Positions 18,455 through 21,950 of a stretch of 32,625 nucleotides of DNA are shown one piece after another. The stretch covers positions 1-32,625 of the forward strand of contig JALRBL010000068.1 of the NCBI GenBank assembly GCA_023257795.1, read 5' to 3'. Numbering within the stretch: position 1 is the first letter of the stretch; each line of letters starts with the position of its first letter. The notes beneath the pieces were generated by a model that was not told the origin of the DNA, did no database searches, and saw only the letters and a program-made list of their open reading frames with translations. The stretch comes from Gammaproteobacteria bacterium. Lineage in GTDB: Bacteria; Pseudomonadota; Gammaproteobacteria; Magnimaribacterales; D2472. A program made the translations under genes and the position numbers.

Positions 18455-18483
18455 TTGAGATAAACACTATAAAGATTTAAAAT
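18455..18483 (+). promoter_or_regulatory. Sigma70-like promoter for the metF-metK-ahcY operon
   Basis: TTGAGA (18455-18460), exactly 17 nt, TAAAAT (18478-18483); predicted start about 18489-18491, just before the putative aptamer. Confidence 0.65.
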
Positions 18484-18491
18484 AAGCACAC

Positions 18492-18536
18492 ATAGCGATT
18501 TGTTCCTGCTTGCATGCTAAAACTGCTAAAAGGGGC
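18492..18536 (+). promoter_or_regulatory. SAM-II/SAM-V-like S-adenosylmethionine riboswitch aptamer (H-type pseudoknot)
   Basis: ATAGCGATTTGTTCCTGCTTGCATGCTAAAACTGCTAAAAGGGGC. P1: TAGC(G) 18493-18497 with (T)GCTA 18515-18519. Pseudoknot: CC...GC in CCTGCTTGC (18505-18513) with GC...GG in GCTAAAAGG (18525-18533). GATTT..CC....TTGC and GCTAAAAGG match the SAM-II pattern GAUUU..CCGUAUUGC ... GCUAAAAAGG. Directly upstream of metF and metK. Confidence 0.75.
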
Positions 18537-18559
18537 GCCTTATAAATATAGGTGTAAAA

Positions 18560-19366
18560 ATGAGTATATCCTTAGAATTTTTTCCACCCAAAGATTTAGA
18601 TTTTCTAAAGGTTGTTGCTTGTTTAAATGATTTAACTAAATTAAATCCAAAATTTGTCTCTATAACATGGGGAGCGTTAGGAAATTCAGAGGAGAAGTCT
18701 ATTGGATTAATTCAAGCGATAAAGAATGCTTCAGATATTGAAGTTGTCTCGCATTTAACTCTAGTTAATAAATCAAGAAATCAAATTAATGAAATTGCAA
18801 AAAATCTTACAAACGAAGGCATAAAAAGAATTGTTGCCATAAGAGGAGATAGTCCAGATGGAAAATTTAAAAGTCACCCAGAGGGCTTCTCAGCGACCAG
18901 TGAGTTTGTAGCATTTCTTAAAGCAAAGGGTTTTGAGGTAATAGTTTCTGCATATCCAGAGCCACACCCTATGTCAAAAGGGCTTGAATTTGACTTGGAT
19001 ATTCTTGAGGGCAAGGTAGCCGCAGGAGCCTCTAAAGCAATTACACAATTTTGTTTTGATACCAGACAATTTGAAATTTTAAAAAATAGTCTAGCGCGAA
19101 GAAACATAAATATTGAATTGATCGCAGGAATAATGCCAATCTATAACTTCGATAATGTTTGTAATATGGCAGCCAGGTGTGGTGCTCAAATACCTTTATC
19201 TATTATTAAAAAATTTGAAGGCAAATCAAATGATGATGAAAATCTTTCTGTCCAAATAGCTGTTGATCAAATAACAGAATTAAAGAATATTGGATACGAT
19301 TCTTTTCATGTCTACACCCTTAATAAATCAAACTTAATAAATAAAATTTTTAATAGCCTTAGCTAG
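18560..19366 (+). CDS. metF: Methylenetetrahydrofolate reductase MetF
   Basis: 268 aa; SLEFFPPK, NPKFVSITWGA, VSHLTLVNKSRNQI, GIKRIVAIRGDSPDG, VSAYPEPHP, AGASKAITQFCFD; upstream of metK. Confidence 0.93.
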   Translation: MSISLEFFPPKDLDFLKVVACLNDLTKLNPKFVSITWGALGNSEEKSIGLIQAIKNASDIEVVSHLTLVNKSRNQINEIAKNLTNEGIKRIVAIRGDSPDGKFKSHPEGFSATSEFVAFLKAKGFEVIVSAYPEPHPMSKGLEFDLDILEGKVAAGASKAITQFCFDTRQFEILKNSLARRNINIELIAGIMPIYNFDNVCNMAARCGAQIPLSIIKKFEGKSNDDENLSVQIAVDQITELKNIGYDSFHVYTLNKSNLINKIFNSLS

Positions 19367-19393: not shown

Positions 19394-20536
19394 ATGACTT
19401 ATATATTTACATCGGAATCAGTGTCTGAAGGCCATCCTGATAAAGTTTGCGATCAGATATCTGATGCAATTTTAGATGCTTACCTCAAGGAAGATCCCAA
19501 CAGCAGAGTTGCATGTGAGACTTTGATCAAAAATAATATGGTGATAGTTGCAGGAGAAATTACCTCATCAGGAAACCCTAATCTTGAGCCCATTATTAGA
19601 AATGTGATAAATAACATTGGGTATAATGATGATGCGCTGGGCTTTAATGGCAATAATTGCGAAATTCAAAACTTTATTTTTCAACAATCTCCCGACATAG
19701 CTCAAGGTGTGAATGAGGGTGAGGGTGAAAACTTAGAACAAGGCGCCGGAGATCAAGGTTTGATGTTCGGTTATGCATGTAATGAAACTGCGACTTTAAT
19801 GCCAGCGCCTATTGATCTTAGTCATAAGCTTGTTAAAAGACAGTCAGACATTAGAAAAAATGGAGCCCTCTCTTGGCTAAGACCAGATGCTAAGAGTCAG
19901 GTTAGTGTAATTTATGATGATGGCGGAAAAACCATTAAAGGAATATCTGCAATTGTACTATCGACTCAACATGATGAAGGCATTAAACAGAGTGATCTCA
20001 AAGAGGCTGTTTTAGAAGAAATTATTAAACCAGTTATTCCAAGTGAGTGGATTCTTGGGAGCACAAAAATTTTTATAAATCCGACTGGTAAATTTGTAAT
20101 TGGTGGACCTGTTGGCGATTGTGGTCTTACAGGCAGAAAAATTATTGTTGATACTTATGGCGGAATGGCAAGGCATGGAGGAGGAGCCTTTTCAGGCAAA
20201 GATCCATCCAAGGTTGATAGATCTGCTGCTTATGCAGCTAGATATGTAGCTAAAAATATAGTCAATTCAGGTTATGCTGATTGCTGCGAAATTCAAGTTT
20301 CATACGCAATTGGAGTTGCTGAGCCTACATCCATAAATATTAATACTTTTGGAACTGAAAAGACTGATATCGCAAACCTAGAATCATTGGTTCGGGAAAA
20401 ATTTGATCTTAGGCCAAAAGGAATTATCAATATGCTTGATTTAAAAAGACCAATATACCAAGATACAGCTGCCTACGGGCACTTCGGAAGATCAGATGTT
20501 GTGTTCTCTTGGGAAGAATTAAACGTTAACTTGTAA
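19394..20536 (+). CDS. metK: S-adenosylmethionine synthetase
   Basis: 380 aa; [56 protein letters not shown]. Preceded by AGGAGA SD. Confidence 0.98.
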
Positions 20537-20555: not shown

Positions 20556-21950
20556 ATGAGTAATGATTATAAAGTTGCAGATATTGCATTAGCAGATTTC
20601 GGAAGAAGGGAAATATCGCTTGCTGAAAATGAAATGCCAGCGCTTATGACGCTTAGAGAAAAATATAAAAACGAACAGCCATTGAAAGGCGCAAAAATAA
20701 TGGGCTGCATACATATGACTGTTCAAACAGCTGTACTCATGGAAACCCTAGCTGATCTAGGGGCTGAGCTTCGCTGGTCATCATGTAATATTTTCTCTAC
20801 TCAAGACCATGCTGCTGCAGCTATGGCTGCAAGAGGAATACCAACCTTTGCTTGGAAAGGTGAAACCGAAGAAGAATTTGAGTGGTGTATTGAGCAAACT
20901 ATTCTCAAAGACGGAAAACCATGGGATGCAAATATGATTCTCGATGATGGTGGGGATTTAACTGCCATGGTTCATGACAAATATCCAGATATGCTTGAAA
21001 ACATTCATGGTATTTCAGAAGAAACGACGACGGGCGTACATCGATTAAAAGATATGCTAAAAAAGGGAGAGCTAAAGGTTCCTGCAATCAATGTAAATGA
21101 TTCAGTAACGAAATCCAAAAATGATAATAAATATGGTTGCAGACACAGCCTTAACGACGCCATTAAGAGAGGAACAGATATGTTGCTTTCTGGAAAAAAA
21201 GCATTGGTTATTGGGTACGGCGATGTTGGAAAAGGTTCTGCGCAAAGCCTCTCCCAAGAAGGCATGATTGTTAGAGTAGTAGAATCTGATCCAATTTGTG
21301 CAATGCAAGCCTGCATGGATGGTTATGAAGTAGTTTCGGCCTATAGAAATGGTGTTGTAACTAGAAAAATCGAGGATATAAACACCGCTCTTTTGCTTGA
21401 TACCGATCTATTAGTAACCACAACTGGAAATGTAAATGTATGTGATGCTGCTATGCTAGAAAGCCTTAAGAATGGCAGTGTAGTTTGTAATATCGGTCAC
21501 TTTGATAATGAGATTGATACTAAATACATGAGAAATGCATGGTACTGGGAGGAGATCAAGCCTCAAGTTCACAGAATATTTAGAGATGCAAAGCCTCATA
21601 GTGATCCAGATTTCAGATCTAAGAATTTTATTATCTTGCTGGCTGAAGGCAGATTGGTTAATCTAGGAAATGCTACTGGTCACCCAAGTAGAATTATGGA
21701 TGGATCTTTTGCTAACCAAGTGTTGGCTCAGATATATCTTTACGAGCAAGCCTTTGCAAATATTAACGATGAAGATAAAAAGCAAGAATTACTTAAAGTT
21801 AAGGTTCTTCCAAAAAAATTAGATGAAGAAGTGGCAAAACTTATGGTTGAGGGCTTTGGTGGAGTAGTAACCAAACTAACTGAAGAGCAAGCCAACTACA
21901 TTGGCGTAAAGGTTGAAGGCCCATTTAAAGACGAAGAATATAAATACTAA
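20556..21950 (+). CDS. ahcY: S-adenosylhomocysteine hydrolase
   Basis: 464 aa; [30 protein letters not shown]-binding motif, C-terminal [14 protein letters not shown]. Confidence 0.98.

Follow-up and report, generated by a model that had tools for sequence, protein, structure and literature searches.

A compact SAM-II-type element, very probably a sensor of S-adenosylmethionine, in the metF leader of a SAR86-order genome

A short pseudoknot upstream of metF

SAM-II riboswitches occur in Alpha-, Beta- and Gammaproteobacteria according to Meyer et al. (PMC2704228), and in the survey of Leyn et al. (PMC4239095) the SAM_alpha family is limited to Rhizobiales and Rhodobacterales among about 200 genomes. 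The structure of SAM-V, as presented by Huang and Lilley (PMC6061858), combines within an H-type pseudoknot a P1 of 4 bp, a third strand (G5-G11) from which C6 bulges, a P3 stem-loop of 3 bp placed between P1 and P2, and a P2a of 2 bp that includes the Shine-Dalgarno sequence. The same paper reports that the SAM-V core superimposes on that of SAM-II, that both bind SAM almost identically, and that in translational members SAM stabilises P2a beside the Shine-Dalgarno sequence. For SAR86, we found no report of a SAM-II riboswitch in the open-access papers searched, as judged from titles, abstracts and passages.

The DNA analysed here (the window, 32,625 nucleotides) comes from a draft genome of the SAR86 order, 1.27 Mb in 108 contigs. 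The leader of metF (18484-18559, forward strand, as are all features below) contains an H-type pseudoknot at 18493-18536 with the SAM-II signature GAUUU, UUGC and GCUAAA in that order, and its sequence and pairings are as a first-pass annotation had described them. P1 is formed by UAGCG (T18493-G18497) and UGCUA (T18515-A18519), with four Watson-Crick pairs and one G-U. The P1 loop, GATTTGTTCCTGCTTGCA, faces GCTAAAAGGGGC at 18525-18536 and consists, in order, of GAUUU (18497-18501), GUUCC (18502-18506), UGC, UUGC (18510-18513) and A. A linker of 5 nt (L3, AAACU, 18520-18524) separates P1 from GCUAAAAGGGGC (18525-18536), which begins with the P2 3' strand and pocket GCUAAA (18525-18530), so that UUGC faces GCUAAA in P2. 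P2a extends the pseudoknot by pairing GUUCC with GGGGC (18532-18536) in five pairs, two of them G-U. By analogy with the SAM-II and SAM-V structures (PMC6061858), GAUUU would be the third strand (triplex segment) of the pocket.

A further hairpin follows. Its 5' arm, the anti-Shine-Dalgarno strand GCGCCU (18535-18540), shares two nucleotides with P2a, and its 3' arm, AGGUGU (18550-18555), holds the metF Shine-Dalgarno sequence AGGUG, 5 nt upstream of the ATG at 18560. The distance from the end of the aptamer (18536) to this ATG had been put at about 26 nt and is corrected to 23 nt. Upstream lies a probable sigma-70-type promoter, TTGAGA-17-TAAAAT (18455-18483), which agrees with the consensus at 10 of 12 positions; chance alone would give one site of this quality, and the match is only suggestive. 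The expected start of transcription, around 18490, would fall on the aptamer's 5' edge, and the leader would then consist of almost nothing except the aptamer and the hairpin. The SAM-cycle operon previously proposed downstream was identified from Pfam and TIGR families as metF, encoding methylenetetrahydrofolate reductase (18560-19366; PF02219, E=5e-65), metK, encoding methionine adenosyltransferase (19394-20536; TIGR01034, above cut-off), and ahcY, encoding adenosylhomocysteinase (20556-21950; TIGR00936, above cut-off), in this order.

When the whole window was searched with Rfam, no family reached its gathering score. The best sub-threshold match in the metF leader was to SAM_alpha (RF00521), over the full length of the model, with 21.7 bits and E=0.009. 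This is below the cut-off of 36, as are most canonical SAM-II elements of the order. Across the 1.27-Mb source genome, the top two SAM_alpha sites scored 22.7 bits (ahead of metB, cystathionine gamma-synthase) and 21.7 bits (the metF leader), and the third scored 11.5. The SAM-II long loops family (RF01726) gave a weak match of 14 bits in the metF leader, and the long loops of that family are short in the window.

With canonical SAM-II the element shares the predicted H-type pseudoknot with its P2a, the order of the three pocket strings and the position before a methionine gene. It differs in size. P1 has 4-5 bp in the short form against 5-7 bp in canonical SAM-II, and the linker after P1 has 5-6 nt against 10-12 nt, the canonical sizes being those of nine SAR86-order loci; the shortness of the linker was also recognised in the first-pass annotation. 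The spacing from UUGC to GCUAA is 11 nt in most short-form sequences; a few rows gave other sizes by automatic measurement, which are probably slips of pattern matching. It differs as well in having a Shine-Dalgarno hairpin in place of a terminator and in scoring under the Rfam cut-off.

The possibility that the element is instead a SAM-V, the marine class known from Pelagibacter that acts on translation, had been raised from the short linker. It gains some credit from the marine host, the 4-5 bp P1, a translational mode of control that is only probable here, and the near identity of the SAM-V and SAM-II cores in the published structures (PMC6061858). However, the SAM-V model (RF01826) gave no hit at E<=10 when run on the window, or at E<=5 in 15 relatives, although it also matched nothing in 299 genomes of the phylum and so is a model without a positive control. 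No P3 stem-loop lies between P1 and the 3' strand of P2, where the linker consists of AAACU only; 5-6 nt leave no room for one. In the third strand one nucleotide (A) separates G from UUU, as in SAM-II, against two in SAM-V, where there is an extra bulged nucleotide, and in SAM-V the 2-bp P2a itself holds the Shine-Dalgarno sequence. Since the window lacks both P3 and the extra third-strand nucleotide, a compact SAM-II-type element is preferred, and SAM-V is improbable. The element is, as judged by its sequence, a compact SAM-II-type variant that approaches SAM-V in size, and the SAM-V assignment is not supported. The suggestion of a divergent SAM-II has thus held up, with a compact P1 and linker and a score below the cut-off, and the metF leader is very probably a shortened SAM-II-type sensor of S-adenosylmethionine that is missed by the standard RNA-family threshold.

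The presence of ahcY in the operon invites the question of whether the compact pocket might recognise SAH, or fail to distinguish it from SAM, and ahcY and metF are typical SAH-riboswitch targets in other Proteobacteria (PMC4239095). This reading is slightly less probable even than SAM-V, since the uridines whose O4 faces the sulfonium in SAM-II and SAM-V are kept, and the SAH and SAM/SAH families had no Rfam match in the metF leader.

Conservation and covariation in the SAR86 order

A covariance model, R1, was built from six metF leaders and used to search 200 SAR86-order genomes, of which 39 contained the short form at E<=0.01 and about 30 at E<1e-8. When aligned, the 35 matches in fetched loci, including that of the window, show an almost unchanging core that consists of GAUUUGUUCCUGCUUGCAU, then four bases of P1, then AAACUGCUAAA. 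GAUUU is near-invariant in this alignment, UUGC and GCUAA are invariant, and the last A of GCUAAA is replaced by G in four relatives. In the MetF subfamily to which the window belongs (48-100% identity), each of the 14 genes with sequence available upstream has the element at most 80 nt from its start; the only other copy (G171) starts at position 18 of its contig, and a distant MetF of another SAR86 family, with 24-34% identity, lies outside the subfamily set. Among public genomes the nearest metF genes belong to a gammaproteobacterial MAG and to SAR86. That the element is more than a chance resemblance is argued by its place among the top two sites of its genome, by a near-invariant core combined with compensatory changes in P1, and by its presence before every metF of the subfamily that has a leader.

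Outside the order the short form is scarce. A search of 399 genomes of the phylum returned only the window and one other match (L150), which we judged to be false: a short repeated sequence flanks an ordinary hairpin there, GAUUU and UUGC strings in the SAM-II order are lacking, and there is no nearby gene start. A search of viral contigs for the core pattern, made with phage carriage in mind, found nothing.

The pairings may be examined one by one in the alignment of relatives, bearing in mind that the covariation counts are inflated by the relatedness of the sequences. Three of the five P1 pairs are changed on both sides, as where UAGC:GCUA of the window becomes AAGU:ACUU in other SAR86 loci. 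P1 is paired in 93.6% of cells, compared with 14-61% when the partners are slid, and its covariation score was equalled in 4 of 500 shuffles. For the Shine-Dalgarno hairpin 87% of cells are paired, 14 cells show double changes, and the score was reached in none of 500 shuffles; these percentages lean towards the structure because a GG[TC] motif served to position the 3' arm, with rows cut and joined by script and two re-registered by hand. P2a is complementary in 87% of cells, mostly with one-sided changes, and has a single compensatory case (GUCUC:GAGGC in L149, C-G to U-A). P2 is complementary in nearly all sequences, and because its paired core never varies it has no covariation support. 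The covariance-model check proposed at the outset gave a SAM-II match below the cut-off and no SAM-V match; in related leaders P1 covaries and the core hardly varies.

These changes also bear on the notion that the conserved stretch acts only as DNA, as an operator or promoter element of divergent tkt and metF promoters. The stretch does lie between tkt and metF, and a promoter-like site adjoins it. Against it, P1 and the hairpin show compensatory changes, and the element follows metF to loci that have no adjacent tkt (L125, L129 and L139). MetJ, the usual methionine repressor in many Gammaproteobacteria, was also looked for: 61 SAR86-order genomes were searched for the family and none gave a match, whereas E. 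coli, the working control, did. Control by MetJ was rejected on this ground, and a purely DNA-based role is very improbable, the least probable of the alternatives considered. In two loci (L125, from genome G079, and L008, both of another SAR86 family) the short form and metF are present with no metK downstream in the stretch covered, which suggests that the aptamer and metF travel together.

The Shine-Dalgarno hairpin and the mode of control

As a whole, the evidence leads us to propose, with a probability of roughly 0.8, that a compact SAM-II-type riboswitch controls metF-metK-ahcY by negative feedback, mainly at the level of translation. When SAM is bound, P2 and P2a would be fixed, by analogy with translational SAM-II and with SAM-V. 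The hairpin GCGCCU:AGGUGU would then stack directly on P2a and hide the metF Shine-Dalgarno sequence; P2a abuts the hairpin, and a continuous stack would hold translation off. When SAM is scarce the pseudoknot would loosen, the AAGG of the P2/P2a strand could capture CCUU from the 5' arm of the hairpin, and the way would be open for ribosomes to load. The small AAGG:CCUU hairpin occurs in the unconstrained minimum-energy fold of the window.

Attenuation was considered and rejected: an intrinsic terminator was sought in the metF leader of the window and none was found, in agreement with the first-pass annotation. Its preference for translational control stands as likely, though unproven, on the strength of this absence and of the conserved hairpin that covers the Shine-Dalgarno sequence, a hairpin it had overlooked. 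Translational repression by SAM is thus the likely mode. That SAM is the ligand, that control runs in this direction and that the two structures exchange is what we infer. The exchange was not borne out by calculation, since the computed accessibility of the Shine-Dalgarno sequence does not rise when the aptamer is free. In nested partition-function folding of the window it was unpaired with probability 0.14 with the aptamer free and 0.24 with the aptamer blocked, so that no switch was reproduced, and the same comparison in 11 relatives gave no consistent difference; this folding model excludes pseudoknots, ligand and co-transcriptional folding.

The aptamer might be real and yet act otherwise than by hiding the Shine-Dalgarno sequence. 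In that case the hairpin could be a coaxial extension of P2a that stabilises the aptamer, could protect the 5' end of the mRNA, or could act on RNA life-time or Rho. The unchanged pairing in the nested folding fits such a role, as does a Sinorhizobium SAM-II, which stabilises its mRNA while lowering translation (PMC9373788). A further argument comes from genomes that carry the short form without metF at the site. There the element stands ahead of metK, in most cases with 104-135 nt from the first base of the match to the metK start, and the hairpin is kept in nearly all of them (it is absent in L142 and weak in L140). In one such group it also covaries, its inner pairs being swapped from CCUU..GAGG to CCAA..UUGG with no metF start behind. 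On the other side, the genomes that do have metF place its Shine-Dalgarno sequence in the 3' arm at normal spacing from the ATG, and we regard this alternative as unlikely, though well ahead of the others. Translational repression through the hairpin remains the favoured reading. Since the hairpin persists where metF is missing, hiding the metF Shine-Dalgarno sequence is probably not all that it does.

Comparison of remnants such as GGUGAAAAAUUAAAAUUAC (L145) with GGUGAAAAAUGAAAAUUUC (L129) suggests an in-place deletion of metF. Tentatively, the hairpin could be a new expression platform of the compact SAM-II lineage, through which the aptamer controls metK from a distance after the loss of metF; we hold this to be rather unlikely. 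Such control would perhaps act by ribosome loading at the Shine-Dalgarno-like arm of the hairpin, comparable to Sinorhizobium metA, where translation is reported to occur at a distance from a Shine-Dalgarno sequence inside the SAM-II leader (PMC9373788), or else by a relay of hairpins. Four metK leaders (L131, L133, L135 and L137) have a further hairpin, UUUUCCUCC:GAGGAAAA, over the metK Shine-Dalgarno sequence, and its UUUUCCUCC strand is nearly complementary to AGGUGGAAAA of the aptamer-proximal hairpin, so that a relay is possible.

SAM-II-type RNAs in the methionine regulon of SAR86

The short form exists beside a larger set of canonical elements. RF00521 sites at E<=0.1 were found in 125 of 200 SAR86-order genomes, and sites above the 36-bit cut-off in 14 of the 200. 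Those examined sit before metY-type genes, metB, a metX-type alpha/beta hydrolase, metH and two TonB-dependent receptors (metY, metX and metH were named from sequence and Pfam domain). The canonical elements (before metB in the source genome and before metY, metX or metH elsewhere) share the pocket strings and the regulon with the short form. They differ in their longer P1 and linker, and in most of them an intrinsic terminator follows that has anti-terminator complementarity, its 5' arm being able to pair with the GCUAAA strand. This is a transcriptional design, in contrast to the window, which has no terminator in the metF leader.

The metB site of the source genome (L082:1501-1603, contig C60) illustrates this arrangement: downstream of its canonical SAM-II-like aptamer come a terminator hairpin and then a T run, and UUUGAUAUGG in the aptamer loop is complementary, apart from one bulge, to CCUAUCAAA in the stem of the terminator, so that it could serve directly as an anti-terminator. 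At two other loci (L129:1282-1572 and L139:1482-1822) a short-form metF is divergent from a metH that has a canonical SAM-II-like aptamer (23.6-28.3 bits), so that a single intergenic region carries one aptamer on either side. In L113:1501-3075 and L115:1501-3075, TonB-dependent receptor genes are preceded by SAM-II-like aptamers of about 35 bits, which suggests that uptake of a substrate is under SAM control.

SAR86 is an abundant, uncultivated marine lineage in which MetJ was found in none of the 61 genomes searched and SAM-II-type RNAs stand before most of the methionine-cycle genes seen. From the compact form one can see how far the SAM-II fold can shrink, and the helix length of this form makes it a bridge from SAM-II to SAM-V. 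The persistence of the aptamer before metK after the loss of metF is a natural experiment on the re-use of a riboswitch.
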